Shown: positions 6,901-29,907 of the stretch, piece by piece | How the letters are laid out: each line of letters starts with the position of its first letter | How positions within the stretch are numbered: position 1 is the first letter of the stretch | From: Nitrospiria bacterium | GTDB taxonomy: Bacteria > Nitrospirota > Nitrospiria > SBBL01 > JAADHI01 | Reading direction: 5' to 3' | Length of the DNA stretch: 37,655 nucleotides | NCBI GenBank assembly: GCA_945787655.1 | Contig: CALZIJ010000028.1 | Coordinates: forward strand, 1-37,655 | Made by a program: the position numbers and the translations under genes | The notes under the pieces: model-generated | The model's input: only the letters and a program-made list of their open reading frames with translations | Told to the model about the DNA's origin: nothing | Databases searched by the model: none

Positions 6901-7494
6901 CGCGAGGTAATCTTCACGGAGCGTGATCAATGTTTTGACCGTAATCATGGGGGCATTGATGAGGTCTGTGATCGCGGTCATGATGTCATGCTGGGTTGCT
7001 TTCAGGGATTCTACTGTTTGGTTTTCAGTCGCTTCTTCGAAAAGGGTGACCCATTCTTCAAATTGATCAAAAATCAGGAGCGGATGGACCTCGCCAGCGT
7101 GATCCCGGACCTTTTTGATAAAGCGGTCCACAGATAAAACACATTGCCGCTGTGTTTCATCTGTGGCAAAAATTGAAGGCAGGAAGGGTGGGTCTCCTTC
7201 GACCTCCTTTGAAATCCGATCAATGATGAATTCACTGCCCTGAACGGGTTGAACACGAATCCGTTCAGGTTGGAACCCTTCGTCAATGGCAAGCGGAATC
7301 AGCCCTGAATTCACGAGTGAAGATTTGCCTGTTCCTGAGTCGGCGTAAAGTAGCATGCCGCGGGAAAGCGTGATGTTTCGGATCAGACTCCTTTTTTCGG
7401 CTTCCCTCGCGAAAAAGACGTGGCGGTTAGTATAACTGAAGGGGAAAATTCCCGGAAAAGGATTTTCAGGCAATTGTTTTTTTTCGCGACTCAT
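3907..7494 (-). CDS. nSTAND NTPase with transmembrane segment, coiled coil and 14 WD40 repeats
   Basis: This 1195-residue protein is a STAND-type signalling NTPase. The order is: N-terminal FPGIFPFSYTNRHVFFAREAE (nSTAND1-like), Walker A ADSGTGKSS at 51-59 (first glycine replaced by alanine), Walker B LLIFDQFEEW at 139-148, a helical C-terminal NTPase portion to ~400, one predicted membrane helix at ~430-448, an alanine/glutamate-rich coiled coil to ~530, and a DPEKSVLLALQAIA helix. Then come 14 WD40 blades from residue 584 to ~1171, each exactly 42 residues, enough for two seven-blade propellers. The last blade lacks its WD. The start overlaps the SIR2 gene stop as ATGA, implying translational coupling. 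In known systems STAND proteins sense a ligand through the repeat region and oligomerise to activate an effector. Here the effector is probably the SIR2 partner (inference). Confidence 0.9.
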   Translation of the reverse strand: MSREKKQLPENPFPGIFPFSYTNRHVFFAREAEKRSLIRNITLSRGMLLYADSGTGKSSLVNSGLIPLAIDEGFQPERIRVQPVQGSEFIIDRISKEVEGDPPFLPSIFATDETQRQCVLSVDRFIKKVRDHAGEVHPLLIFDQFEEWVTLFEEATENQTVESLKATQHDIMTAITDLINAPMITVKTLITLREDYLAKLAPFFERCPNLPDRYLRLTKLNSSQVEEVVRGPFKKYPGQFHPELKNELAARIRSEFERLSAGSDIRLTEVQIICKSLFDSGIEEDTLVSHFESSGGVKGILEQYLEHAIQSLDSDRQEPAIALLSRMVTSVGTRNVVNGEDLIGRVTREDKIPQDLLTETLQDLEYKAKLIRKERRREVYYYEIASEFLVGWIGNKAREYKRLADQKMMLEQKQRAEEQAQIAQRFRRLSVSLAAVFVLAAGFGIYAWDQRDQAMRAQKEAEEQTLLAETRLKETLAAQEKEAEATQLAAEKTEQATAATIIAEQERKRAIEQENRAEAEEKIAASRKLAIAANDLLKTDPEKSVLLALQAIAVADQGNIPFESIESLHQALQHSHLRLTLDNHQNFVTTVSFSPDGKLMASGSWDKTVKLWNASNGKEIAALKGHTREIIDLDFSSDGNKIATGSGDGTAKIWDIPKRALLQTFKGHTGNVRSVAFHPSGEQAATGGEDSDIRIWDVKTGKTLHTFRDHIKPVVALSFNKTGDRLASSSADSTIKIWDIKSGKPLRTLSGHASEVTDLSFSPDGKYIATASNDQSAKIWDVENGEVIQTFKGHTKGIRGIAYRSDGEFVATAGWDKMAKVWDVASGEAIATLKGHTGGLTDVAFTPDGQQLVTAGWDKTLKIWAVASGEAFPVLLGHRDKITGVTFQPKGQEIASASADKTLKLWNINSGSPRLTLKGHTKAVTDVTYDLKGTRLASSSADKTARIWDSKTGKTITTLKGHQSEITGIDFHPDGKHIATAGWDNNALIWDAASGKKLKTLSAHTQEIHGLSYSPDGLFLATASGDKTVNIWDAKTGTVIRTLKGHTGGVKAAVFSPDNKRLATASWDKTAKIWDAKTGNNILTLTGHRHVVTGVAFSPDGKYIGTSSRDKTAILWDAKTGAKQFEIKAHSGEILDLAFSPDSQYLVTSSTDKTVQNVTLDLKTLLALARNRVTRSLSPEECKSFLPKGKCLPNP

Positions 7495-8390
7495 GGCGTA
7501 AATGTTTTTCCCATTATTTCTTTATAAAGCTGGGGCACAAAAGTCCAGAGGTTTTCTGTGACAAAAGCGATAAGCGCGCTTTTTTCCTGCCAGACTTTTT
7601 GAATCAACGGGTCGGGGTGGTTATCGACAGAATAGGAAAGCGGAAAATTTGCCGGATCAACGCGCCAGCGCAATGTTCTGAAAAGCAGGCGGAGATTGTA
7701 ATCTCGTAGGCTGTAACCAAAAAAAAGGGTCGGCCATTTTTGCATCCGGTAGCGGACGGTCTGGGGTACGGGATGCACGGCATCCTTGTCCGACATCCGC
7801 TGAACAAAGGTAATATAGTCTTCATCCGTAATGACGATGGATTCCCGTTTTTGTAAATCCCCATGCATTTTAAACAAGAGCGGGTTTTCGGGTGTCGGGT
7901 CGTCGATCATGTCTGGCGTGCGCTCGGAGGAATCCGGATTGTAGATAAAATGTTCCGGTTCCTTGTCACAGTTTACAAGGGCTTTTTCCAGCAGCCGGTC
8001 GTAGTTGGTGGTCACGAAAATCTTGAAGGGCATTTCTGCCAGCATTCTTAAAACAGGGGAAGGTCTTCTGTTTTTTTTCAGGTGTTCATCCAGAAAATTA
8101 ACAAGCGCATTTCTTCCGAAATTTGTCTCGACGAAAAGGGCGACGCGTTGCAAATCTCTGGGGGATTCCCCTTGAAACTCCTTGTGGGTGACGAAACCAA
8201 ATTCTTCCGAAAGCTGCTGGGCCAGATCCCCGCCCAAAGGCAGCCGGTGTTCTTCGGGATAGTCGTATTCGGAATCGTCCGGCGGCGGGGCATGCACCCC
8301 CGCACCCAGGAACAAGACGCAGTTTCCCTTTTTCAGATAGGCCAATAATTCCCGAAGGGTTTGATTGAGTTCAGAGGTTGAGAGGGTCAT
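7491..8390 (-). CDS. SIR2-like (SIR2_2) domain protein, putative NAD-consuming effector
   Basis: The 299 residues carry the SIR2-type Rossmann signatures: VLFLGAGVHAPP with the GAG at 29-31, FVTTNYDRLLEKAL at 126-139, KMHGDLQ with the catalytic-type histidine at 176, and FFGYSLRDYNLRLLFR at 223-238. This pattern is typical of SIR2_2 proteins found in bacterial conflict systems, which degrade NAD+, and not of protein deacetylases, whose zinc-ribbon cysteines are absent. It sits between the receiver-like gene (14 bases upstream) and the STAND gene (4-base ATGA overlap). There is no strong ribosome binding site, suggesting coupling to the upstream gene. No signal peptide or membrane helix, so cytosolic. 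NADase activity is inferred from family precedent (Thoeris ThsA, Avs5, DSR). Confidence 0.85.
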   Translation of the reverse strand: MTLSTSELNQTLRELLAYLKKGNCVLFLGAGVHAPPPDDSEYDYPEEHRLPLGGDLAQQLSEEFGFVTHKEFQGESPRDLQRVALFVETNFGRNALVNFLDEHLKKNRRPSPVLRMLAEMPFKIFVTTNYDRLLEKALVNCDKEPEHFIYNPDSSERTPDMIDDPTPENPLLFKMHGDLQKRESIVITDEDYITFVQRMSDKDAVHPVPQTVRYRMQKWPTLFFGYSLRDYNLRLLFRTLRWRVDPANFPLSYSVDNHPDPLIQKVWQEKSALIAFVTENLWTFVPQLYKEIMGKTFTP

Positions 8391-16412: not shown

Positions 16413-18290
16413 ATGCACATGAATTTTTTAGCAGTTGATCTATACGGCGTTTGTCCTTTCCAAAAACCGAAGCGGATTTCTTTCAAGCCTGGTTTTAATT
16501 CGATCCTCGGACAAAATGGTTCTGGAAAAACAATGGTTTATCAGGTAATCTCTTCTATTTTTTCGAATACATCAGTAGAAAATATTGCATTTGAAGACAA
16601 TCAGCCTGCGCAGGCGGCTGTTTCGTTTCAGGTGGATAACGGCCGTATTTTTCGGATTGCACGCGATTATCAAAAAGAGGCCTGGCATTTGTCTCAAATG
16701 GATCCGGGAACAAAAAAATTTACGAGCCTTGAGACGGATCAATCAAGCATTCTGGAATGGCTTAAAAAGGAAACCGGCGGGCTGGATGAAAATGAGCGCC
16801 GGCTTCTTTTTATGCTTGATCGGCATCGCCTGCCTTCTTATGCGGGGGGACGTGTTTATTCTAAATTGACGGACGTTTCCGCCGGAAATGCACCCTCTTT
16901 CATGGAGAAAGATCGTTCCACATCTAAAAAAGATCCTGCCTTGGAGGAGGAGCGTTCCCAATTAGAAATCGCCCTGAAGAACGCTGAAAAAAAGCTGGAT
17001 GACATGGTCGAACTTGAGGATGAGATGCTGTTAAAACAAGATCAGGCGGCGGCTATTGAAAAAAGAATAGCGCTTGTTGAGGAAATGCAGCAAAAGATAG
17101 TCAAAATGGAAGCGGTCGAAAAGGAAAAATTTTCTGTTTTTATACAGGACGGTATGATGAGCACGGAACAGGAGCAGGCTTATGAAACCGGACAAGCGGC
17201 ATTAGACAATGCCCTCGAAGATTTGGACATGGAATCCGAGTCTCTGGAGGCGCAGCTTATTTTAAAAGGACGGGGGGATTCTAAAAAAAATATCCTCGTC
17301 ATGATCGGGGGAGCTATTGCAGGGATATCTTTCTTCCTTCCATTCATTGTGACCCTGGTGGGGCCGGCACGCTTTATTTTTCTGGCAGGTTTTTTGGGTG
17401 GCAGTGCGCTTGCTCTTTTTGGCTATTTTAAAAGCAACAGGATGGCGGCCGACAAAAAAAAGCTGGAAGTGACGTTCAATGCGACGAAGGAAAAAGGCCG
17501 GCAGCTTGAACGGCAATTTGATAAGGAACAGGCAATGGTCTTGGCCCTGATTAAAAAGACAGGAGCCAAGGATATTTCGGACTTAAACACCCGGCAGAAA
17601 AACTATGTGAACCTGAAGGAAAAGAAATCAGCAGCCATCCAAAAGGTGAAGGAAACGCTGGCCGAAGGTACGGTTGAAACCCTCAAGAACGATGCAAAAC
17701 AGCTGGATGGAGAAGTCAACGCACTCAAAGAACAACTCAAGGAACACCAAAGTATCTCCGAAGAAGTCTATCGCCTTCAGGAAAGGCTTCGGGAAATTGA
17801 ATCCAGCCCCCAAAACCCTGATTCTGTTTTTGGAGAATTTCCCGGGCTGGAAACGACTGTCCCGGATGTTCAAGTCTCTGATATGACGTCGATCATGAAT
17901 ATTGGCGGCGCAGCCCCAGCCGAACGCCAAAAACGACTCGAACGTGATGCGGCGATTGTTTATCGCCGGTTTCGTCCCAAGAATACTGAAGCCATACGGT
18001 TTAATGAACAGGGGGCGCTGTTTGTGGGAGAAACCCCGCTCTCTTCGATGAGTGAAGGTACGGCCGATCAAGTGGTCATTTCAGTCTCCCTTTCCGCAAT
18101 CAGCCAGTTCCCCGAAATTACATTTCCTCTCCTGATCGATGATGCGTTTTCGTCCTTGGATCATCTTTCACAAACCAGTGCCTTGCGAATTCTTGAAATC
18201 ATATCCAAGAAAAGGCAAGTCATTTTTTTTACCAGACAAATCAACACCTCGGAAATGGGCCATACCTTTGAGTTGGCATCGGGGTATTAG
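16413..18290 (+). CDS. Rad50/SMC-like ATPase with a central two-helix membrane hairpin
   Basis: The ABC-type head is split across the chain, as in Rad50 and SMC. Walker A GQNGSGKT is at 33-40. The signature-like LSSMSEGTADQV (543-554) and Walker B FPLLIDDAFSSLD (571-583) are C-terminal. The ~400 residues between form coiled coils (~175-290 and ~345-465). Where Rad50 has a zinc hook, this protein has two hydrophobic helices (~294-315 and ~317-339), so the coil would be tethered in a membrane. The overall plan resembles YhaN/AAA_27 proteins. A role in DNA-end sensing at the membrane is inference. The protein may start at 16413 or the ATG two codons later. It is followed by a STAND/AAA gene after 64 bases. 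Confidence 0.75.
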   Translation: MHMNFLAVDLYGVCPFQKPKRISFKPGFNSILGQNGSGKTMVYQVISSIFSNTSVENIAFEDNQPAQAAVSFQVDNGRIFRIARDYQKEAWHLSQMDPGTKKFTSLETDQSSILEWLKKETGGLDENERRLLFMLDRHRLPSYAGGRVYSKLTDVSAGNAPSFMEKDRSTSKKDPALEEERSQLEIALKNAEKKLDDMVELEDEMLLKQDQAAAIEKRIALVEEMQQKIVKMEAVEKEKFSVFIQDGMMSTEQEQAYETGQAALDNALEDLDMESESLEAQLILKGRGDSKKNILVMIGGAIAGISFFLPFIVTLVGPARFIFLAGFLGGSALALFGYFKSNRMAADKKKLEVTFNATKEKGRQLERQFDKEQAMVLALIKKTGAKDISDLNTRQKNYVNLKEKKSAAIQKVKETLAEGTVETLKNDAKQLDGEVNALKEQLKEHQSISEEVYRLQERLREIESSPQNPDSVFGEFPGLETTVPDVQVSDMTSIMNIGGAAPAERQKRLERDAAIVYRRFRPKNTEAIRFNEQGALFVGETPLSSMSEGTADQVVISVSLSAISQFPEITFPLLIDDAFSSLDHLSQTSALRILEIISKKRQVIFFTRQINTSEMGHTFELASGY

Positions 18291-18354
18291 CCGCATTGCC
18301 TCGTTTCTTCCGGATTTTGATTGTTCCCATTTTTCTGGGATGTTACAGTAACGC

Positions 18355-19296
18355 ATGCCGGATGCCGCTTTTATCAGCCGACAGGGTCTGATCCGAAACC
18401 TTCATCAATCGCTTCAAAACGGGAAATCTGCACTGATGGTCGGAGGACCCTTGATTGGAAAAAGCACTCTGGCCCGGCAATTACTTCAAAAGTTCAAAGA
18501 CGACCCCGCATCCCTTAGCCCTGTGTTTATCCCCCTGGAACAAATGCAGAGTTCTGCAGATTTTTGGGGTATTTTAATGAAAGGGATACTTCGGGACCTT
18601 TTAGACCCCAATGGACAAAACCCCTATCGCAAGGGGCCTGATTCCCTGGCAAAGCTGATGACACAACTCCATTATTTCTCTGAAAAAAAGCCGGAGCGCT
18701 TTCTCAGGAAAAAGCTGGTATTGCTCATTGATGATTGTGACCGTTTTCTACCCGATGCCGCGGCATGTATCGCTCAAATAGAGAACATGAGAATGGAATT
18801 AATGGCGCCCTCCATAGAAGCCATTTGCTGGATAGGCGGACTTTCATGGCTCGACTGGGTTGATACTCATGAGAAGGATTTTGGTGGCCCGCTTCGCCGT
18901 TATCCGCTTTCCACTGTGCCGATCCGGGAAACCAGGTCCATTATACAAACACAACTAGGGCCGGAAAAAGTGGCGCCGGTCTGGGAAGAAACCGGAGGAC
19001 ATCCCTTTTTACTCGAAAAATATTTTGGAGGGATCCCAAACTATACTCTTGATCAATGGAATCAGAGGATATGGTCTGATCTTCGTCCGGCAGAAAAAGC
19101 GGTTTTAAATCGACTCGATCCGAAGGGAAAATGGCACATTCTGGACGATCTTAAAATGGAAGATGGAACAAAGCCCTCTAAAACCCTGCTGGACCGGCTT
19201 TGTATGGCGGGTGTGATTGTCCGCACTCTGGAGCAGGGCATAGCGGTGCTTCGCATCACTTCTCCACTGATACGGGAAGAAGGCCCTGATGGTTAG
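18355..19296 (+). CDS. Small STAND/AAA-type ATPase with C-terminal winged helix
   Basis: The 313 residues contain Walker A GGPLIGKST (30-38), Walker B LVLLIDDCDRF (121-131), a sensor-like GGLSWLDWVDT segment, and the GGHPFLLEKYF motif usual in AAA/STAND ATPases of the AAA_16 or ATPase_2 kind. The C-terminal ~70 residues (PAEKAVLNRLDPKG onward) look like a winged helix. No repeat sensor or effector domain is attached, so it probably works with the preceding Rad50-like membrane ATPase (64 bases upstream), or as a regulator. The start is preceded by the small palindrome GTTACAGTAAC instead of a clear ribosome binding site. Function not established. Confidence 0.7.
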   Translation: MPDAAFISRQGLIRNLHQSLQNGKSALMVGGPLIGKSTLARQLLQKFKDDPASLSPVFIPLEQMQSSADFWGILMKGILRDLLDPNGQNPYRKGPDSLAKLMTQLHYFSEKKPERFLRKKLVLLIDDCDRFLPDAAACIAQIENMRMELMAPSIEAICWIGGLSWLDWVDTHEKDFGGPLRRYPLSTVPIRETRSIIQTQLGPEKVAPVWEETGGHPFLLEKYFGGIPNYTLDQWNQRIWSDLRPAEKAVLNRLDPKGKWHILDDLKMEDGTKPSKTLLDRLCMAGVIVRTLEQGIAVLRITSPLIREEGPDG

Positions 19297-20985: not shown

Positions 20986-21843
20986 CTATCCAATGAGGCA
21001 GGCTATATATTGTTCCATTTTTTTCGCCTTTTCGGTTTCTCCGAGCCGTGAGTAACTGGAAATCAGGTTTCGGATCATGCGTGCGAGAATTTGCCGGTCT
21101 GGAGTGGGGGCAAGATAGCCGTCATGCCAGGCTTGTCCACTGCGGGTGATAAACTGCATACAGGCCTTTCGGGTCAGGACTTGACCCGCATTAAACGGAT
21201 CGATCAGAATTGTTTTTTTTCGGGTGCGATAGGCGGTGATGAAATGACCGGGCATGCCTACGCCCGCGATGGGAAGATCAAGTCTGCGTGCGATAAAAAG
21301 ATAAATGGCTGAAAGTGAGATTGGAATGCCCAGTTTCCGGTCAAGCACCCGGTTGATGTAGCTGTTGTCGGGATTGATATAATCCGTACTGTTTCCCTGA
21401 AAACCCAATTCGGCAAAAAGATAATGGCTCAGGTGGTGTACTATTGATTCCGGCGTGGTTTTTTCTGAAAGCCGTTTCCCAAGTTCTGCGGCCATTTCAT
21501 CCAACTGCCGCTGATAGGGCGTGATGTCCAGATCGGGGTCGGCGGATTGAGCGATCAGGAATGCGCCTTCTTCCAAATCGACATCGCTTTCGGAAAACCC
21601 TTGAAATTGTCGAAATACTTTTTCGGAACGCATCCTTAATAATAAAATCTGGGCAGAATTTCGAATCGTTTTGTTCGGATGAAACAAGGCTTCTTCAAGA
21701 TACGGGCGGGCCTGCTCACCCAGCGCCAGAATTTGCGCTTGAATGGCCTCGGCCACTTGTGTGTCCTCATCGGTCAGCAACTGAATCAGGGCCTTGATTT
21801 GCCGGTCGGGGAGTATCTCGTATTTTTCTTTTGTTTTTTTCAT
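20986..21843 (-). CDS. SirB1-family transglutaminase-like protein with N-terminal HEAT-like helices
   Basis: Residues ~1-75 look like a HEAT/ARM-type helical pair (LIQLLTDEDTQVAEAIQAQI and onward). Residues ~80-285 match the SirB1/transglutaminase-like 2 family: INPDNSYINRVLDRKLGIPI, SLSAIYLFIARRLDLPIAGV, GMPGHFITAYR, ILIDPFNAGQVLTR and a final TPR-like helix. As usual in this family, the position of the transglutaminase cysteine is a serine, so an enzymatic role is doubtful. It is coupled to the upstream JAMM gene through a TGATG stop-start overlap. The biochemical role of SirB1-type proteins is not settled. Confidence 0.8.
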   Translation of the reverse strand: MKKTKEKYEILPDRQIKALIQLLTDEDTQVAEAIQAQILALGEQARPYLEEALFHPNKTIRNSAQILLLRMRSEKVFRQFQGFSESDVDLEEGAFLIAQSADPDLDITPYQRQLDEMAAELGKRLSEKTTPESIVHHLSHYLFAELGFQGNSTDYINPDNSYINRVLDRKLGIPISLSAIYLFIARRLDLPIAGVGMPGHFITAYRTRKKTILIDPFNAGQVLTRKACMQFITRSGQAWHDGYLAPTPDRQILARMIRNLISSYSRLGETEKAKKMEQYIACLIG

Positions 21844-22286
21844 CAGGCCACCACTTCGATTTCTGTTTCCGAGATGTTTTCGTCCACGATCGTAAATGCC
21901 CGAATGTGCGGGTTATTCTTGTCTTCCAGTGATGCGATTAAATAATAGACATCGGGGTAAAAAGCCAGCCGCACATCGGTTGCAGAGGGGTATGCTTCGG
22001 AGTGGGTGTGGGAATGATAAATCGCAAGCAGCGCTGTCTTTTTTTCTCGCATTTGTTTAAAGGCGGTAATTTGTTCCTTGGGGTCCATCACATATCGCAG
22101 TGTCCGGTCCGCAGGAACATTTAAGTTCTTGATGGACGGGTCATCTGAGGGCAGGTTGGTGATTTTATAGATTTCAGTGGCGGTTTTGTCTGTTCCCGCC
22201 AGCAGTCCGCAACATTCGTTGGGGGCTTCCGCCCGAGCATGGGCAATGAGCGCATCCGAGATTTCTTTGGTCAGTTGAATGGCCAT
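21843..22286 (-). CDS. JAMM/MPN (M67-like) metallopeptidase
   Basis: The 147 residues from the ATG at 22286 contain the JAMM zinc motif: E24 (PNECCGLL), then HSHTHSEAYPSATD with zinc ligands H91, H93 and D104 and S101. Bacterial members remove C-terminal extensions from sulfur-carrier proteins (CysO/ThiS/MoaD-like) or act as deubiquitinase-like enzymes; no carrier gene is nearby. The frame is open 43 codons further upstream, but that stretch is low-quality and overlaps the AT-rich hipBA regulatory zone, so I use the internal ATG, where family members begin. Coupled with the SirB1-like gene by TGATG. Confidence 0.85.
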   Translation of the reverse strand: MAIQLTKEISDALIAHARAEAPNECCGLLAGTDKTATEIYKITNLPSDDPSIKNLNVPADRTLRYVMDPKEQITAFKQMREKKTALLAIYHSHTHSEAYPSATDVRLAFYPDVYYLIASLEDKNNPHIRAFTIVDENISETEIEVVA

Positions 22287-22587
22287 AAACCGGGTGAATC
22301 CTTCCTGACGCTTGCAATATCCATTGGCAAAAAATGGACTGATATAACAAAAGTAAGGAAATATAACATAATGGCTTCTCCGTGTGCGATGCTTGTTTGC
22401 ATGGCCTGTTTTCATTTATTGAAGAAAGAAATGTATATTAATTCGCCAAAAAATACGATATCTGCCATATTTTTTATATAAATCGTAATAAAAGGCGACT
22501 TATTTTAGATATTTTTCTTGCATTGTAAGTCGCCATATATTACGATAAATAAAGTATTTATGCTGTAAATCGACAAAAAGGGCGATT
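22287..22587. other. 301-bp AT-rich divergent control region between the JAMM gene and hipB
   Basis: No gene. The right two thirds hold several copies of a TCGTAATA...GGCGA-type motif, described separately as hipBA operators. The left part would have to contain the JAMM-gene promoter; no strong match was seen. Confidence 0.4.
22441..22580. promoter_or_regulatory. hipBA operator cluster overlapping a candidate promoter
   Basis: A 20-base arm TCGTAATAAAAGGCGACTTA (22483-22502) is repeated inverted at 22526-22545 with 18 of 20 matches. Partial copies occur at about 22443-22461 (TCGCCAAAAAATACGATA) and 22566-22582 (TCGACAAAAAGGGCGA). The possible promoter TTGTAA (22523-22528), 17 bases, TAAATA (22546-22551) overlaps the right arm, so bound HipB would block it. 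Autoregulation through spaced operators is known for HipB; the specific sequence is read here. Confidence 0.6.
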
Positions 22588-22938
22588 ATGGAAATTACAA
22601 AGCTTCTTGCAGACGAAGCGATTTTAAGCGAAATCGGGCATCGTATTGCGCAGCGTCGGCTTGACCTCCGTTTGACACAGGCTGCCGTGGCTGAACAGGC
22701 CGGCATTGCTAAACGGACCCTTGAGCGGATTGAAGCGGGCGCATCGGCACAATTTTCCAGTCTTATTCGTATTTTTCGAGTGCTCGACCTGACCTCCGGT
22801 TTGAATGATCTTATTCCAGAAACCGGTCCCCGTCCGATGGATTTATTAAAACGGAAAGGCAAAAACCGTCAACGGGCCCGTTCGATCCCTTCCTCAAAGC
22901 GCAGCGGCCAGGCTTGGAAATGGGAGGACGGGCAATGA
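22588..22938 (+). CDS. hipB: HipB-like antitoxin / XRE-family repressor
   Basis: This 116-residue DNA-binding protein has a helix-turn-helix at about residues 13-68 (LSEIGHRIAQRRLDLRLTQA, then AVAEQAGIAKRTLERIEAG) and a basic tail. HipB proteins neutralise HipA kinases and repress their own operon. The gene overlaps hipA by ATGA, and spaced inverted repeats lie directly upstream. The start ATG follows a GGGCGATT context, a weak ribosome binding site. The tail after residue ~85 (KGKNRQRARS) is longer and more basic than in minimal HipB proteins. Confidence 0.8.
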   Translation: MEITKLLADEAILSEIGHRIAQRRLDLRLTQAAVAEQAGIAKRTLERIEAGASAQFSSLIRIFRVLDLTSGLNDLIPETGPRPMDLLKRKGKNRQRARSIPSSKRSGQAWKWEDGQ

Positions 22939-24239
22939 CCCGTCTCGCGGAAGTTCGATTATGGGGCCGGACGATCGGAGCGGTTTCCCAACCCGAAGCG
23001 AATGGTGTTGCTGTTTTTGAATATGACCGGGATTTTGCAGAAAGCGGCATCCAGGTTTCCCCGTTGATGATGCCGCTTTCCCCAGATCTTTATCGTTTTC
23101 CTGAACTCTCCCGAAAAACCTTTTACGGATTGCCCGGTATGCTGGCAGATTCACTGCCGGATAAGTTTGGGCATACGATTATTGATGCCTGGTTGGCCGC
23201 CCAGGGGCGGCTGCCCAATGCGCTAAGCGCGGTTGAGCGTTTGTGTTACACCGGGAAACGGGGGATGGGCGCTCTCGAATTTGCGCCCGCACTCGGTCCA
23301 AAAGCTCGGCAGACAGGACAGGTCGAGATTGATCATCTGGTGGCTCTGGCATCCGAAGTCCTTAATCATCGACATCAGCTTCGGACTTCTTTCTCAGATG
23401 TAAACAGAGCTGAGGCGCTGACCGACATCCTGCGTGTCGGCACTTCAGCCGGCGGCGCGCGGGCCAAGGCCGTGATTGCCTGGCATCCGGAAACCCACGA
23501 GGTCCGTTCCGGTCAAATGCCGGCAGGCGAAGGGTTTGAATACTGGTTATTAAAATTTGATGGAGTGAGTGGCAACCGGGATAAGGAACTGGAAGATCCA
23601 AAGGGTTACGGGGAGATTGAATATGCGTATTCAATGATGGCCGAAGACTGCGGTATTGAATTTAGCGCGTGCCGTTTGTTTGAGGAAAATGGCCGCCGCC
23701 ATTTTATGACCCGGCGTTTTGACCGGCTGCCCGGAGGAGAAAAACTGCATATGCAGTCCCTATGCGCCATGGCGCACTACGATTTCAACCTGGCCGGGGC
23801 ATACAGTTATGAGCAGGCCCTGCTGGTAATCCGACGATTGGGTTTGCCCATGTCTGCCATTGAACAGCAATTTCGCCGGATGGTGTTTAACATCGTTGCA
23901 CGAAACCAGGACGATCATGTTAAAAACATTGCCTTTTTAATGGACAAGGCCGGGCGTTGGTCACTGTCTCCCGCTTATGACATGACATATAGTTACAATC
24001 CCGAAGGGGCATGGACTGCAAGTCATCAAATGACCCTGAATGGCAAGCGTGAAATGTTTACAATGGAAGATTTTAAGGCGTGTGCAAAAACAGCCTCCAT
24101 GAAGCGCGGCCGCGCCGAAACGATTGTTCAAGAGATACATAAGACTGTTTCACGCTGGAAGCACTATGCAGAAGCCGCCGGAGTACCGGAGGCCACACAA
24201 GAGCAGATTCAGAAAACACTTCGTTTAAAGCCGTTTTAA
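22935..24239 (+). CDS. hipA: HipA-family serine/threonine kinase toxin
   Basis: The 434 residues match HipA kinases, which in E. coli phosphorylate glutamyl-tRNA synthetase and stop growth. Visible features are the N-terminal subdomain with GLPGMLADSLPDKFG, the glycine-rich loop GTSAGGARAKAV (169-180) including the serine usually autophosphorylated, the ATP lysine context YWLLKFDG, the catalytic loop NQDDHVKN (D326, N331), and the metal-binding aspartate in AYDMTYS (D349). All catalytic residues appear intact. The start at 22935 is chosen for the ATGA overlap with hipB and a GGGAGG upstream. The target could differ from E. coli. Convergent with the CarH-like gene. Confidence 0.9.
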   Translation: MTRLAEVRLWGRTIGAVSQPEANGVAVFEYDRDFAESGIQVSPLMMPLSPDLYRFPELSRKTFYGLPGMLADSLPDKFGHTIIDAWLAAQGRLPNALSAVERLCYTGKRGMGALEFAPALGPKARQTGQVEIDHLVALASEVLNHRHQLRTSFSDVNRAEALTDILRVGTSAGGARAKAVIAWHPETHEVRSGQMPAGEGFEYWLLKFDGVSGNRDKELEDPKGYGEIEYAYSMMAEDCGIEFSACRLFEENGRRHFMTRRFDRLPGGEKLHMQSLCAMAHYDFNLAGAYSYEQALLVIRRLGLPMSAIEQQFRRMVFNIVARNQDDHVKNIAFLMDKAGRWSLSPAYDMTYSYNPEGAWTASHQMTLNGKREMFTMEDFKACAKTASMKRGRAETIVQEIHKTVSRWKHYAEAAGVPEATQEQIQKTLRLKPF

Positions 24240-24261: not shown

Positions 24262-25179
24262 TTATTTTTTGAGACGGTTTTTTTGAAAAAATTTTGAGAG
24301 GCGTGTTTCCACTTCTTTATGGCTGTTGAATACAGTCAGGCCGTTTTTCTGAAGTCTCTCCATGACGCCTTGTGCACCGGTCCCGCCGATCCAGACCGGG
24401 CAGATTGAAAGAACGTGTTCTGCGCAAACCCGGATCAGCGCTTCAAGGGTTTCTTCTGAAGGAGTTAAGGTTATTGATACTAAAACGAGATCTGGCTGAA
24501 CCTGCGTGCAGAGCGAATGAAGTGCCTCTGCCGGGACATTGGCCCCCAGATAATGAACCTGGTGTCCATGAAGCCTGCAAAAATAAGCCGACATTTGTGC
24601 GCCGATTTCGTGTTCTTCTTCGGGTGCGCAGGCAATGACAATTTTATGCCCCTGGTCGTTGATTTTGAATTGATTCATTGCAGTAAAGATTTTTTGTTGA
24701 ACATGATGGGTGACAAAGTGTTCAACAGCCACGCTGATTTTCCCTTCGTGCCAAAGCTCCCCAATCCGGACTTGTAAAGGAATAAGAATGCCGTGAAGCG
24801 CTTCTTCGAAGGGGATGACTGCGACGGAGCCGTTCAAACGGTTTTCAAAGGAAAGGATATCCAGCGGGTCCAATGTCGCTGTGATTTCATCGATGAGGGC
24901 ATCAAACGATGTCGGTGTGGCTGATTTTTCAGGTGGCAGCGCATGAATGTTTTCTAGTAAGGCTTCCCGCCCCAGCGCGGCCAGATCACCAATTGAGGTG
25001 CCCTGGTCCATTTCCCGTTTGAGGTAACGCAGTAAAGCCACATCTTCATCAGTATAGATTCGATATCCGTTTTCTCCTCTTTTGGGTTGAATGATCCCGT
25101 AACGTCTTTCCCAAACCCGGATGACGTCCTTGGTCAAGCCGGTTAATTTTGAAACCCGATGAATACGATGTGTGTTCAT
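24262..25179 (-). CDS. CarH/LitR-type MerR regulator with cobalamin-binding domain
   Basis: The 305 residues combine a MerR helix-turn-helix (~5-72, SKLTGLTKDVIRVWERRYGI), a helical-bundle cap (~90-170) and a Rossmann B12-binding domain (~177-300). The cap contains W143 followed after nine residues by E153-H154, the Wx9EH pattern diagnostic of adenosylcobalamin photoreceptors. The B12 domain has ExHxxG (E188, H190, G193), where H190 would be the lower axial ligand. In known CarH, darkness favours a DNA-bound tetramer and light breaks the Co-C bond and releases DNA. A consensus promoter and almost no leader precede the gene. A divergent promoter 20 bases away is the obvious target (inference). 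Confidence 0.88.
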   Translation of the reverse strand: MNTHRIHRVSKLTGLTKDVIRVWERRYGIIQPKRGENGYRIYTDEDVALLRYLKREMDQGTSIGDLAALGREALLENIHALPPEKSATPTSFDALIDEITATLDPLDILSFENRLNGSVAVIPFEEALHGILIPLQVRIGELWHEGKISVAVEHFVTHHVQQKIFTAMNQFKINDQGHKIVIACAPEEEHEIGAQMSAYFCRLHGHQVHYLGANVPAEALHSLCTQVQPDLVLVSITLTPSEETLEALIRVCAEHVLSICPVWIGGTGAQGVMERLQKNGLTVFNSHKEVETRLSKFFQKNRLKK

Positions 25180-25236: not shown

Positions 25237-25266
25237 TTGACAAAGCCTGAACAATGTTGTTATATC
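25237..25266 (+). promoter_or_regulatory. Divergent promoter for the zinc-ribbon/SUMF1 gene group
   Basis: TTGACA (25237-25242) is followed after 18 bases by TATATC (25261-25266). The two divergent -35 elements are 20 bases apart. TTGTCAAAG (25210-25218) and TTGACAAAG (25237-25245) form a near-identical direct repeat spaced 27 bases, a possible recognition pair for the MerR-type regulator. Confidence 0.55.
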
Positions 25267-25320: not shown

Positions 25321-25572
25321 ATGAAAAATAATAAAAAAATCGACAAAAATTTGATTGAACAATACTTGAACAATCCGTCCTGTCAACGATGCGGCGGTTT
25401 AATGGTCAGCGCGTTTTATTTAGGTGAAGAAAAATTTGTGGGCCGTACTTGTGTGCAGTGCGGAGAGATGATCGATCTGTATGTCATTTTAAATCGTTTC
25501 GGGTTTTCAACGGACGAGAAAGACATCCTGGCGCTTTTTTCGTTTCTGGAAATTGAGTTTTACCTGAATTAA
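25321..25572 (+). CDS. Small zinc-ribbon-like protein
   Basis: The 83 residues contain two CxxC pairs, CQRCGG and CVQCGE, spaced about 21 residues apart, which would bind one zinc. The rest is acidic and hydrophobic, ending in FSFLEIEFYLN. The ATG at 25321 has a strong GGGGGGAG upstream. Longer frames from 25237 begin inside the promoter and are rejected. It is the first gene after the CarH-like divergent promoter, so it is a likely light- or B12-responsive gene. No family name could be assigned. Confidence 0.65.
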   Translation: MKNNKKIDKNLIEQYLNNPSCQRCGGLMVSAFYLGEEKFVGRTCVQCGEMIDLYVILNRFGFSTDEKDILALFSFLEIEFYLN

Positions 25573-25592: not shown

Positions 25593-25687
25593 AAAAACGG
25601 GAGGGTTTACGTTTTATACAAAGGGCAGGGAATCAAAATAACATGAAGCGTTTATGTACAACACTTCATACAAAAAAAGGAGAAAAG

Positions 25688-26659
25688 ATGAAGACCAATA
25701 CTGTGAACATAGAAAACACCAAGAAGATATTATTTTCCGGCTTAAGTGCGCTGCTGGGGGTCTTACTATTGAGTGCGACTTTAAGTCATGCAAATGGTAC
25801 GGAGGACATGGCCTTGATCCCGATGGGTGAATTTACCATGGGGGATGAAATGCATTACGACAGTCCCCCTCATCCGGTTGTTCTGGATGCTTATTATATT
25901 GATAAATACGAAGTTTCCAATGCACGTTATGCCAAATTTATGGAAGCCACCGGACATGCTGCGCCGGCCTATTGGGATAACCGGATGCTGAACAAACCCA
26001 TGCAGCCTGTTGTCGGTGTGAACTGGTTTGACGCCAAGGCCTTTTGCACCTGGGAAGGCAAGCGTCTTCCCAGTGAAGCAGAATGGGAAAAGGCCGCCAA
26101 AGGGCCGGAGGGAAACCATTACCCCTGGGGCCATGAATATTCCGAGGATAAATCCAATTGCTGTCAAAATGTTCGCACAACCAGCAATGTGGATGCATAC
26201 CCCAAAGGGGTGAGCGGTTATGGCGTATTTAACATGGGGGGCAATGTTTATGAATGGGTTGAGGATTGGTATGACCCGAAGTACTACGTGAAAAGCAGAG
26301 CATTAAATCCCAAGGGGCCTGAAAAAGCCTATATATGGGGCGCGATGGGTGAAATGAAGGTATTGCGTGGTGGTTCGTGGTTTGCCCCCAGTTCTTCGCA
26401 ACATACCAGTCAGCGATTCTGGAAAAAACCTGAAAACAACTCCTATGGCATTGGTTTGGGTTTTCGGTGTGCAAAAGATGCATCCGGAAGTGTGACAGAA
26501 GAAACACAGCAGGCGTTTATGAAAAGCCTTATTTTCATGGGTTCCAGGAAAACAGACGAGGCCTTAAACGCGATTAACACGGCCTTGAAGCTTGATCCCG
26601 AAAATACAAAGTTTTTGGAAACAAAAGCGCTCATTCAAAAAATGGCGAGTCATAAATAA
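25688..26659 (+). CDS. Secreted SUMF1-fold protein with a C-terminal TPR (paralogue 1)
   Basis: The 323 residues from the ATG at 25688 (AGGAG upstream) have a signal peptide (hydrophobic ~15-33, cleavage near SHA), then a formylglycine-generating-enzyme-like domain. Its landmarks are MALIPMGEFTMGDE, YYIDKYEVSNARYAKFMEAT, VGVNWFDAKAFCTWEGKRLP, SEAEWEKAAKGPEG, GNVYEWVEDWYDP, VLRGGSWF and GLGFRCAKD. The cysteine pair of true FGE, which lies between RGGS and GFRCA, is missing, so sulfatase activation is unlikely. One TPR-like helix pair ends the protein (TDEALNAINTALKLDPENTK). Closest visible relative: the protein at 28.0-29.1 kb. Confidence 0.85.
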   Translation: MKTNTVNIENTKKILFSGLSALLGVLLLSATLSHANGTEDMALIPMGEFTMGDEMHYDSPPHPVVLDAYYIDKYEVSNARYAKFMEATGHAAPAYWDNRMLNKPMQPVVGVNWFDAKAFCTWEGKRLPSEAEWEKAAKGPEGNHYPWGHEYSEDKSNCCQNVRTTSNVDAYPKGVSGYGVFNMGGNVYEWVEDWYDPKYYVKSRALNPKGPEKAYIWGAMGEMKVLRGGSWFAPSSSQHTSQRFWKKPENNSYGIGLGFRCAKDASGSVTEETQQAFMKSLIFMGSRKTDEALNAINTALKLDPENTKFLETKALIQKMASHK

Positions 26660-26751: not shown

Positions 26752-27111
26752 ATGCATAGATGGAAAAAACAGAAACGGTCAAAGCCCGGTTGGATATTTT
26801 TGGGCCTGTTCATGCTGTTGGTGGTCACTGTAGGTAAAAGTCACGGCGGGCTGCTAGTCAACCTGCAATCGGCGCAACGACATGTAGATCATGCCTGGGA
26901 AGTATACCACACAGCGGCCTTGTCGGGAACGCTCGCATCGCCGGAAATTCAGATGAATATCGAAAAGGATTTACATCTTGTCCGAACGATACTGGTCGAG
27001 GCCCGCGATGCGAAATCGAAAAATCAAAAACAAGTGCTTCAACAAAAGCTCAAGGAAATAGAATCCATCACGGTTCGGGTCATTCGTCAGAGTCAGGAGA
27101 AAAAACAATGA
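26752..27111 (+). CDS. Small exported helical protein of unknown function
   Basis: The 119 residues have a basic N terminus and one hydrophobic segment (about 14-28, WIFLGLFMLLVVTVG), consistent with a signal peptide or anchor. An all-helical charged region (~35-119) with coiled-coil character ends in KLKEIESITVRVIRQSQ. The ribosome binding site AGGAG is clear. It overlaps the next SUMF1 gene by ATGA, so the two are made together and may interact. I recognise no family. Confidence 0.6.
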   Translation: MHRWKKQKRSKPGWIFLGLFMLLVVTVGKSHGGLLVNLQSAQRHVDHAWEVYHTAALSGTLASPEIQMNIEKDLHLVRTILVEARDAKSKNQKQVLQQKLKEIESITVRVIRQSQEKKQ

Positions 27112-27956
27112 GTGCCCATTACGAGATCAGGCAAGTCGTCTCGGGCCGCCTTTTTATCGTGTTTTTATTGATCGTGTTTTGGGTAGAAATCATGTCTCCC
27201 ACAAGACTCCGGGCCGCTGAATCTGAATCTTTATTCAAAGATTCCGCACCGATGATTGAGATTCCTGAAGGCGATTTTTTGATGGGCAGCACTGAAAACA
27301 CCGGGCGGGCGGATGAAAGACCTCAACGAAAAATCAGCCTTTCGGCCTTTGCCATTGATGTGTTCGAGGTGACGAACAAACAGTATTTACGCTTTGTTGA
27401 GGCCACCGGGCACAAGGCCCCTTCCAATCCTTATGGACCGGGGCCTTTGTCCGAAATGCAAGGGGTTTTAAAATTACCTGTTGTGCAAGTGACCTGGTAT
27501 GACGCCTTTGATTATTGCCACTGGGCCGGAAAACGGCTTCCTACTGAAGCGGAATGGGAAAAAGCCGCCAGAGGTCCAAAGGGCAGAATATTTCCCTGGG
27601 GGGACGCGCTGCCAAGGCCTAAACAGGCCAATTTCGGGATTGACTGGCAGCATGTGAATACCCTGAGGGGGGGTGGCTCTTTTCCAGAGGGACAATCCTT
27701 TTACAAGGTTCAGGATATGGCGGGCAATGTTCGGGAATGGGTACAAGACTGGTATCACCCGGAATCATATATAAATGCAAAACAAATCAATCCAACGGGT
27801 CCTTCAGACGGCATTCTCAAGGTGATTCGTGGTGGTTCATGGCATCACAAGGGAAGAGGACTGCGCGCCGCGGCCCGGGATAAAGGCGGTTTTGCCCTGA
27901 AAACTGACGGAATCGGATTTCGTTGCGCTAAAACAATTCCGTCAGTTTCAGAATAA
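27108..27956 (+). CDS. Secreted SUMF1-fold protein (paralogue 2)
   Basis: The 282 residues start with a signal anchor (~14-28) and carry one SUMF1/FGE-like domain: MIEIPEGDFLMGSTENTG, FAIDVFEVTNKQYLRFVEAT, VVQVTWYDAFDYCHWAGKRL, PTEAEWEKAARGPKG, GNVREWVQDWYHP, VIRGGSWHHKGRG and IGFRCAK. It lacks both the catalytic cysteine pair of FGE and the TPR tail of the two flanking paralogues. It is translationally coupled to the small exported helical protein before it. It is more divergent from paralogues 1 and 3 than they are from each other. Confidence 0.85.
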   Translation: MSAHYEIRQVVSGRLFIVFLLIVFWVEIMSPTRLRAAESESLFKDSAPMIEIPEGDFLMGSTENTGRADERPQRKISLSAFAIDVFEVTNKQYLRFVEATGHKAPSNPYGPGPLSEMQGVLKLPVVQVTWYDAFDYCHWAGKRLPTEAEWEKAARGPKGRIFPWGDALPRPKQANFGIDWQHVNTLRGGGSFPEGQSFYKVQDMAGNVREWVQDWYHPESYINAKQINPTGPSDGILKVIRGGSWHHKGRGLRAAARDKGGFALKTDGIGFRCAKTIPSVSE

Positions 27957-28037: not shown

Positions 28038-29099
28038 ATGAGAAAAACATTCAGTCAGGTGAAGACGGGTCTATCTCTTTCTATTCTTGCGGGCTCTATT
28101 TTGGGTCACACACTGGTGTCAGGGGCGTCAGAGTTCCCGGTTCCTGAAGGCATGGTGCATATCCCTTCCGGATTTTTTGTCATGGGGGTTGACCAAAAAC
28201 CGGGTCCGGATATGGAGCGCATGAGTCCAATTAAACAGTTGAAGTTTAAGGTGTCCGAAGCGGCCTTTCACGATGAAGGCCCGGCGCATGTTGTGATGTT
28301 GGATGATTATTTTATTGACCAATTTGAAGTTTCCGTCAAACAGTATGATGAGTTTATGCAGGCCACCGGCCATGCGACCCCGGCGTACTGGGATGATCAT
28401 CGATTTAATCAGCCAAGTCAGCCCGTCACTGGCGTCAATTGGTTTGATGCCGATGCCTTCTGCTCCTGGGCGAATAAACGGCTTCCCACCGAAGCAGAAT
28501 GGGAAAAGGCGGCCCGTGGCCCGGAAGGCTCGCGCTACCCTTGGGGGGATACGCTCAAAACCGGTATCGCGAATTTTAATCGCCAGGAAAAAGTGACGAG
28601 CGCTGTGGACAGTTTCCCGGAAGGAAAAAGTTTCTATGGGGTTTACAACATGGCCGGTAATGTTTTTGAGTGGGTCTCGGACTGGTATGACCCCAATTAT
28701 TATGCACAAACGAAACAAACAAAAAACCCGACAGGTCCAGAGGAAGGGGTTGTTTTGGGCACCACAGGAACCTATGTTGATCGTATTTCGGCAGGGGCAA
28801 AAAAGGTGATTCGGGGTGGATCTTGGTACACGCCGGCACAAAGTATTACGAGTACACATCGTTTTTGGAATAACCCTCTCAACAATAGTTATGGCATCGG
28901 TTTGGGGTTTCGGTGTGCAAAAGATGCCTCGATGGATCAACCGATGCAAGCGAGGGATCATTATATGAATGCCTTGATTAAAATGGGTGCAATGAAGTTT
29001 AAAGAGGCCATGACGTCGATCGAAAAGGCGATCCGTATCGATCCGTCGAATAATGAGTATCAGGAACTGAAAACCAGCATTGCAGAAATGGGCAGCTGA
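28038..29099 (+). CDS. Secreted SUMF1-fold protein with a C-terminal TPR (paralogue 3)
   Basis: The 353 residues have a signal peptide (hydrophobic ~12-28) and an FGE-like domain very close to paralogue 1: MVHIPSGFFVMGVDQ, YFIDQFEVSVKQYDEFMQAT, TGVNWFDADAFCSWANKRLP, TEAEWEKAARGPEG, GNVFEWVSDWYDP, VIRGGSWYTP and GIGLGFRCAKD. An insertion of ~25 residues after MGVDQ distinguishes it. The catalytic cysteine pair is missing. A single TPR ends the protein (FKEAMTSIEKAIRIDPSNNE), matching paralogue 1 and indicating recent duplication. AAGGAG precedes the ATG. Confidence 0.87.
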   Translation: MRKTFSQVKTGLSLSILAGSILGHTLVSGASEFPVPEGMVHIPSGFFVMGVDQKPGPDMERMSPIKQLKFKVSEAAFHDEGPAHVVMLDDYFIDQFEVSVKQYDEFMQATGHATPAYWDDHRFNQPSQPVTGVNWFDADAFCSWANKRLPTEAEWEKAARGPEGSRYPWGDTLKTGIANFNRQEKVTSAVDSFPEGKSFYGVYNMAGNVFEWVSDWYDPNYYAQTKQTKNPTGPEEGVVLGTTGTYVDRISAGAKKVIRGGSWYTPAQSITSTHRFWNNPLNNSYGIGLGFRCAKDASMDQPMQARDHYMNALIKMGAMKFKEAMTSIEKAIRIDPSNNEYQELKTSIAEMGS

Positions 29100-29211: not shown

Positions 29212-29907
29212 ATGCGAATTTGGGATATTCATCCGGGATATTTAAATCGACAAAGTTTATTGGGGGAGCATCGGGAGCTTCATGGGATTGTTTCGATTTT
29301 GGAGAATCATAAAAAAGGATACGCCCGACATCCGGAAACCTTACGCTGGGTGGGTTACGGCTGGGCCATTCAAAAACGCCATGCCCTGCTTGCTTCTGAA
29401 ATGGCCTTGCGGGGATACAAGGATAAATCCCCTGTTGTGATGAATTCAAACCAGTCTTACTGGCCCGAAGCGTTTATTGATTTGCCCTTGATTCAATACC
29501 GATTATTAAAGAAAAAATATATCGAAAAAGAGAAAGGTCGTATCCCGCTTCCTGAAACGGCTCAGGAAATATGGCGCCAACATAAATATTCCATCATGGC
29601 AAGGGACCAGAAGCTCTACCGGGAGCTGGGAAGAGAAATTTCCTGCATGTCGCCGGGTGAGGATTTTTCGGCATTGTCCGATTTGTTGTTATATACAATG
29701 AGAAAAACGCCGTCTTCCGGAGGTATTTATAACAGCATTCAACACATGTGGGGACATGTTTCTTTACATTATTCCGGAAATAAAAGCGAAACCCAGGGCT
29801 GGACAGCTAAAAAATTATTGACGGAAACACAAGGTTTAGCCCTGTTGCATCACGAATCCTACCTGATTTCCTCAACCGCGCTCTCTGAACTTGAAGTGTG
29901 GTTATAG
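29212..29907 (+). CDS. Pyrimidine-dimer DNA glycosylase fused to a YbgA/DUF1722 domain
   Basis: The 231 residues begin with the PF03013 (T4 endonuclease V-like) pattern: MRIWDIHPGYLNRQSLLGEH, then YARHPETLRWVGYGWAIQKRHALLASEM and RGYKDKSPV. In T4 the enzyme removes UV-induced cyclobutane dimers using its N-terminal amine. From ~110 onward the chain matches DUF1722 (E. coli YbgA): EIWRQHKYSIMARDQKLYRE, LGREIS and NSIQHMWGHVS. E. coli ybgA is the neighbour of photolyase gene phrB, so both halves point to repair of light damage. AAGGGA precedes the ATG. The fusion and its place downstream of a CarH-type light sensor suggest photoprotection (inference). Confidence 0.75.
   Translation: MRIWDIHPGYLNRQSLLGEHRELHGIVSILENHKKGYARHPETLRWVGYGWAIQKRHALLASEMALRGYKDKSPVVMNSNQSYWPEAFIDLPLIQYRLLKKKYIEKEKGRIPLPETAQEIWRQHKYSIMARDQKLYRELGREISCMSPGEDFSALSDLLLYTMRKTPSSGGIYNSIQHMWGHVSLHYSGNKSETQGWTAKKLLTETQGLALLHHESYLISSTALSELEVWL

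Follow-up and report, generated by a model that had tools for sequence, protein, structure and literature searches.

A T4 endonuclease V-like domain fused to a divergent DUF1722 domain: a conserved bacterial architecture and its possible roles

What might a bacterium do with a protein that joins a relative of the pyrimidine dimer glycosylase (PDG) T4 endonuclease V to DUF1722? The question is raised by a single gene in the window, which here means the whole stretch of 37,655 nucleotides, from a Nitrospiria bacterium, that was analyzed. The open reading frame lies at 29212-29907 on the + strand, with its ATG at 29212 and a stop codon that ends at 29907, and encodes 231 amino acids. The answer that we prefer, to which we would give a probability of roughly 45%, is that the protein is a T4 endonuclease V-type glycosylase/AP lyase carrying a DUF1722 nucleic-acid tail, with pyrimidine photoproducts in DNA as its likeliest target.

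A genuine and widespread fusion

Each half of the protein is recognized by its own Pfam family. PF03013 (Pyr_excise) matches residues 1-74 with E=2.8e-25 and 88.9 bits, where the family's cut-off is 23, and PF08349 (DUF1722) matches residues 125-191 with E=1.8e-7 and 31.8 bits, where it is 22.5. An earlier note on this DNA had described a T4 endonuclease V-like domain fused to DUF1722 here, and had proposed a profile search of the C-terminal half as a check. With both families over their cut-offs, and DUF1722 detected in that half, the description is borne out.

The DUF1722 of the fusion is, however, divergent. In the window protein the match spans profile positions 1-70 of 117 only; in five other fusions (G457, G434, G430, G456 and G455) it reaches positions 105-114. 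When the C-terminal halves of 82 fusions, from residue 105 on, were compared profile to profile with YbgA and the DUF1722 portions of 20 RudS proteins, they matched with a probability of 95.9% and E=5e-9 over 68 columns. The RudS set consisted of the protein from the bacterium's own genome and 19 of 30 loci (L039-L068), chosen by a motif filter. No NCBIfam model matched the fusion at its cut-off (16.6 bits against 121.15 for TIGR02328, 17.5 against 100 for NF038085), nor did Pfam find in it the TudS (DUF523) desulfidase domain with its three Fe-S cysteines. The protein may be divided into a T4 endonuclease V-like fold (residues 1-112; 29212-29547, + strand), assigned by VIA-align superposition on 2END and by residue counts over 82 fusions, and a DUF1722-like helical domain (residues 113-231; 29548-29904, + strand), assigned by Pfam, the profile-profile comparison, conserved residues and a model of its own.

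Full-length fusions are found in four genomes of the window's phylum, Nitrospirota: its own, G003 (74% identity to the window fusion), G007 (61%) and G244 (60%). PF03013 is matched in 39, and DUF1722 in 189, of 395 genomes sampled from that phylum. A wider scan, taking one genome per species over 84,980 species, found 118 stretches that encode a relative, a number that may understate the true spread, as the scan used two short motifs only. The best 80 of the 118 all cover the query from residue 1 to 230 or 231, with identities of 48-74%. Together with the window protein and that of G244, these 80 make up an alignment of 82 homologues, and both PF03013 and PF08349 are matched at E <= 0.01 in every one of them. 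Therefore, neither Pfam match is due to chance; the fusion is genuine and widespread.

The lineages that carry the best 80 relatives include Desulfobulbaceae and other sulfate reducers, Gammaproteobacteria, SAR324, Mariprofundus, Delongbacteria, Calditrichaeota, Spirochaetaceae, Acidobacteria, Krumholzibacteriota, and others. Many of the carriers belong to lineages known from dark, anoxic places, including sediments. By tblastn, no viral contig encodes a relative; plasmids gave no match, and the only phage matches were three weak ones to part of the protein (E 6e-3 to 9e-3).

A tree built from the PDG portion bears on a single origin of the fusion. With stand-alone group-I PF03013 proteins as the only comparison, the 82 fusions fall into a single clade; once divergent group-II proteins are added, they no longer do. 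The stand-alone group-I set held 16 rows for 15 distinct proteins (L006 and L024 are one gene of G019), and left out three further PF03013 rows that resemble group I.

The union of PF03013 with DUF1722 is, in sum, a conserved architecture built of two domains that were each known before. Literature searches on DUF1722 and on pyrimidine dimer DNA glycosylase found no paper with both terms, and the architecture nowhere in print; domain databases probably list it. The sections consulted of PMC11417400, the paper on RudS, mention no PDG fusion, and a count of the term "pyrimidine dimer DNA glycosylase" in that paper gave 0.

The glycosylase-like half and its active site

The AlphaFold2 model of the fusion, built on the 82-row alignment, has a mean pLDDT of 95.9 and a pTM of 0.92. 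Among 174 chains aligned to it by VIA-align, three T4 endonuclease V entries came out on top (2END at Z 9.5, 1ENJ and 1ENK at Z 9.4), in a range, under about 13, where helical proteins may share just a common arrangement. These entries align over 105-109 residues at 3.5-3.7 A, and the next chain follows at Z 3.7. For 2END itself the superposition covers 107 residues at 3.6 A and 20% identity; it places model residues 1-112 on chain residues 2-136, with model residue 1 on T4 residue 2.

Besides the cautionary range of the Z values, two results count against the fold match. With the whole model as query, Foldseek against the PDB returned nothing at E <= 0.001, and its 22 matches at E <= 10 include no chain of T4 endonuclease V. 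A viral structure library likewise gave no match at E 0.001 (the best was 0.038); its matches at a probability of 0.97-1.00 include the pyrimidine dimer glycosylases of a Chlorella virus and an Alteromonas phage, at weak E values of 0.05-0.08. Searches of PDB sequences were empty, both with the window protein (phmmer, 0 matches at E <= 1) and with the 82-row fusion profile (hmmsearch, 0 at E <= 10). The PF03013 sequence-family match is independent of VIA-align, and agrees with it on T4 endonuclease V.

The chemistry of the T4 enzyme, according to PMC3285167, proceeds through a Schiff base on the alpha-amine of an N-terminal threonine, with a catalytic Glu that is numbered 22 there. The first 26 residues of the fusion align with T4 DenV without a gap, pairing Met1 with Thr2, R2 with R3, S15 with H16, R21 with R22, and E22 with E23; M1, R2, E19, H20, R21, E22, L23 and H24 are invariant in all 82 fusions. 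The fusion thus shares with DenV the fold of residues 1-112, the N-terminal position, the Arg and the Glu. It differs in having an initiator Met where DenV has Thr2, in an extra C-terminal DUF1722-like domain of about 120 residues, and at the position of T4 His16, which is Ser in 79 of the 82 fusions, Arg in two, and His in one.

A Met that precedes Arg is normally not removed from a protein N-terminus; whether it is kept or removed, the protein would have a free amine close to where T4 has its own. His16 of the T4 enzyme is said to matter for product release. Because its position is Ser in nearly all fusions, the activity of the fused PDG may differ from that of T4. In the stand-alone group-I proteins the N-terminal motif, MRIWDI..LCRxHLLGEH[RN]ELHA, is nearly identical to that of the fusion; however, they lack DUF1722 (most have 110-145 residues of open frame), some have Asn at the position of T4 Arg22, and position 15 is His in all 15 distinct proteins.

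It might be argued from these changes that the PDG-like half is no longer catalytic, and has become a binding domain only. If Met1 before Arg2 is kept, as is normal, the protein would begin with a residue other than the Thr of T4, and the equivalent of His16 has been lost. Against this, a domain that only binds would not obviously demand the invariance, in 82 of 82 proteins, of the residues around M1, R2 and E22 listed above, and we hold such a loss of catalysis to be quite improbable. A working glycosylase, the reading that we prefer, has on its side the match of the model to the T4 fold, the retention of the amine position and the Glu, and the presence of both domains in all 82 homologues.

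DUF1722, photolyase and tRNA

The C-terminal half, modeled alone (residues 109-231, from a 36-row alignment), has a pLDDT of 93.8. VIA-align found for it no chain at Z >= 2 among 34, which is not evidence of a new fold, and Foldseek found no PDB match at E <= 0.001. Conserved in this half are H124, K125, S127, R131, P167, and N-x-x-Q-H-M-W-G at 174-181.

The earlier note had considered the function of DUF1722 to be open. This is too simple. In RudS, where TudS is followed by DUF1722, the protein removes 4-thiouridine from tRNA, and DUF1722 is assigned the binding of the anticodon region, by docking and mutants rather than from a solved structure (PMC11417400). According to the same paper, a shift is seen with tRNA and purified RudS; activity falls when residues in the stretch assigned to DUF1722 (N202, N203, S243, R244 and others) are substituted; and fusion to DUF1722 changes the substrate of TudS from free 4-thio-nucleotides to tRNA. 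RudS is there tied to near-UV crosslinked tRNA, 74.4% of DUF1722 is given as fused to TudS and 21.4% as standing alone, and YbgA alone is reported to have no significant effect on tRNA 4-thiouridine.

The window fusion resembles RudS in that its DUF1722 stands behind an enzyme domain and in a link to responses to light and UV, described for RudS in PMC11417400; it differs in that RudS has an Fe-S desulfidase in place of a glycosylase. The same genome also encodes a RudS-type protein (L001, 314 aa), which matches 117 of 117 DUF1722 positions, whereas the fusion matches 70. YbgA of E. coli shares DUF1722 with the fusion, but has no enzyme domain. An attempt was made to map the tRNA-contact residues of RudS onto the fusion by residue spacing, via the RudS of Aeromonas; the result was too uncertain to count.

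The main rival reading is that the fusion is directed to tRNA. DUF1722 would then guide the PDG chemistry to tRNA in the way it guides TudS in RudS. The enzyme would act on a tRNA pyrimidine that is photodamaged or thiolated, such as the crosslink of 4-thiouridine 8 to cytidine 13 formed under near-UV, and the damaged tRNA would be cleaved or disposed of. The change of substrate in RudS and its tie to crosslinked tRNA (PMC11417400) speak for this, as does the change from His16 to Ser, which separates the fused PDGs from stand-alone ones. So does the distribution of ThiI. In 54 carrier genomes (50 of the 80 loci plus four genomes), a strong ThiI match (E <= 1.1e-28) was found in 11 and a weaker one, to profile position 144 or beyond, in 38; the remaining five have a partial match (G421, G435) or none (G440, G441, G457). 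An NFACT-R_2 RNA-binding domain was present in all four of those examined among the 38. Because of these ThiI and NFACT-R_2 matches, a pathway of the 4-thiouridine type is plausible in most carriers.

This expectation meets several difficulties, however. ThiI matches are common anyway, being found also in 12 of 14 control genomes, and the counts above are for carriers alone. Only the first part of DUF1722 (1-70 of 117) is recognized in the window protein. At the loop expected to match the anticodon contact of RudS, a correspondence that is approximate, the fusion shows another pattern, P-x-x-G-G. No PDG is known to act on RNA. The result for YbgA alone, noted above from PMC11417400, also stands against it. 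We therefore regard a tRNA-directed enzyme as unlikely. A more specific proposal is that RNA became the target of what had been a DNA-repair glycosylase fold, with DUF1722 bringing the T4 endonuclease V-like domain to tRNA so that it takes out, or cuts at, photodamaged pyrimidines, 4-thiouridine-crosslinked ones for instance; this is to us distinctly doubtful.

The co-occurrence of ThiI was kept as weak evidence for a tRNA role, given the matches in control genomes and the identification of four of the 38 weaker matches. Those four (L154, L156, L157 and L158, each from a different carrier genome) are PP-loop proteins in which a ThiI-domain match is combined with a C-terminal NFACT-R_2; they are candidates for a non-canonical tRNA 4-thiouridine synthetase.

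The association of DUF1722 with photolyase genes, from which the earlier note had set out, is real. The E. coli genes ybgA and phr share four bases. In at least 82 of 116 Nitrospirota genomes compared, a photolyase lies within 2 kb of a listed DUF1722 match; the 116 leave out 6 of 122 genomes with only weak or partial photolyase rows, and more such pairs may exist. Among the rows compared in Nitrospirota, no PF03013 match lies within 10 kb of a photolyase. In G019, a stand-alone group-I PDG gene lies directly 3' of a DUF1722 gene (match E=1.6e-38; the gene is cut by the contig end) on the same strand, with a 4-base overlap if the PDG starts at a GTG, or an 8-base gap if it starts at the ATG of MRIWDI.

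Among the carriers themselves, a second full-length DUF1722 (E <= 1e-28) occurs in 9 of 54, and G451 has a weaker second match. A photolyase match was found in three of the 54, each about 1 kb from a full-length DUF1722 and not beside the fusion; the other 51, the bacterium's own genome included, gave none, PF03441 being a family that does not cover every type of photolyase. This rarity may only mirror the ecology of the carriers. Mutual exclusion between fusion and photolyase is not claimed: of 169 Nitrospirota genera, only 26 have a photolyase match, and the relatedness of the genomes confounds such a comparison.

In the fusion, the earlier note had seen strong guilt-by-association evidence that DUF1722 serves UV-damage repair. 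The neighborhood with UV genes stands; but the DUF1722 of the fusion is divergent, and 51 of 54 carriers are without a photolyase match. That DUF1722 has this role goes beyond the evidence.

A divergent LitR/CarH-type regulator and the likeliest job

In the window, the fusion is the last gene of a run on the + strand, preceded by three genes for proteins with an FGE-sulfatase domain by Pfam (25643-26659, 27108-27956 and 28038-29099) and one for a protein of 119 amino acids (26752-27111). The run diverges from a LitR/CarH-type regulator (24262-25179, - strand). The sequence of this regulator contains W-x9-E-H and E-x-H-x-x-G, which we take to be CarH motifs. Its Pfam domains, all over cut-off, are a MerR HTH (PF13411), a B12-binding domain (PF02310) and B12-binding_2 (PF02607), the make-up of LitR/CarH regulators according to PMC9758184.

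Related genes in the same order precede the fusion in L069 and L074. The divergent regulator is also found in G007 (L074); the promoter regions of the two are similar and share the putative element TGAACAAT-N2-TG-N-TATA (25248-25264, + strand), which was recognized by alignment with L074 and has a single match in the window. In G003 (L069) the contig ends before the position of the regulator. A LitR-like MerR protein diverges from the fusion in L071 as well, where Pfam finds no B12 domain in it, and L141 has a weak LitR-like match (E 1.7e-8) at 5 kb from the fusion.

Beyond such groups of related loci, clustering of 80 loci (1153 predicted ORFs) found no conserved neighbor of the fusion; the fusion's own cluster held 73 of the 80, the other seven having been lost to simple ORF picking or to clustering. 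No photolyase was found by phmmer with E. coli Phr in the flanks of the 80 loci, some of which are short.

Several other genes were observed in passing. A small ORF with CxxC pairs (25321-25572, + strand) lies directly after the regulator-divergent promoter, and is conserved in L074, where, by eye, it is present twice. In three loci (L142:3986, L145:7013, L071:4963), related SRPBCC/polyketide-cyclase-like genes are found at most 80 bases away from the fusion; by Pfam the gene falls just under the cut-off in L142 and has no match in L071. Elsewhere in the window, at 3907-8390 (-), the frame of a 1195-residue protein in which 14 WD40 stretches were counted shares four bases with that of a SIR2-like protein (PF13289). 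The latter has PADLOC matches to ThsA and further SIR2 defence models, and the two are possibly a defence pair. At 16413-19293 (+), an AAA_15 ATPase (PADLOC matches to LmuB and, more weakly, to PtuA and GajA) is followed by a second AAA ATPase without a PADLOC match; at 20986-22415 (-), a protein with a transglutaminase core and one with a prokaryotic JAB domain overlap by one base; and a HipA-like protein with N- and C-terminal HipA domains lies at 22914-24239 (+).

Does the fusion have to do with UV at all? The PDG-like half may instead act on a lesion that is not caused by UV (oxidized or ring-opened bases, or abasic sites), with DUF1722 adding affinity for DNA or RNA, and with the link to light being peculiar to the window's family. 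The presumed anoxic-sediment lineages of many carriers are consistent with this, as are the absence of conserved light-related neighbors outside the window's close relatives and the departure from T4 at active-site position 15. Less easily accommodated are the tie between DUF1722 genes and photolyase and the LitR/CarH-type regulator that diverges from the gene run of the fusion. We consider such a role unlikely.

The reading that we prefer, of excision of pyrimidine photoproducts from DNA, faces the same three observations from the other side: the change at His16, the dark lifestyle of many carriers, and the want of light-related neighbors outside the close relatives all count against a role in UV repair. 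For it count the DUF1722-photolyase neighborhood, seen in E. coli, in most of the Nitrospirota genomes compared and in all three of the carriers with photolyase, the PDG-DUF1722 pair in G019, and the regulator. On this reading, the N-terminal half would be a DenV-type pyrimidine-dimer glycosylase/AP lyase, using as its nucleophile the alpha-amine of Met1, or of Arg2 should Met be removed, with Glu22 as its acid/base. The DUF1722 half may add nucleic-acid binding, a role that we infer because the DUF1722 of RudS is assigned the binding of tRNA. The whole would most likely serve to excise from DNA, independently of light, pyrimidine photoproducts or base lesions of similar chemistry. Control of the gene may respond to light, at least in the family to which the window's protein belongs.

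DUF1722 is widespread, and RudS is the sole architecture containing it for which literature searches found a tested function. A second conserved architecture, in which it is joined to a dimer-glycosylase fold, offers a direct way to ask what DUF1722 is: a module for tRNA, one for nucleic acids in general, or an adaptor in the response to UV. It also raises a testable question, whether the substrate of a relative of T4 endonuclease V is DNA or tRNA. If recruitment to tRNA should prove true, DUF1722 would be a shared tRNA-targeting module, one that equips both the TudS desulfidase and a PDG to act against light-damaged tRNA.
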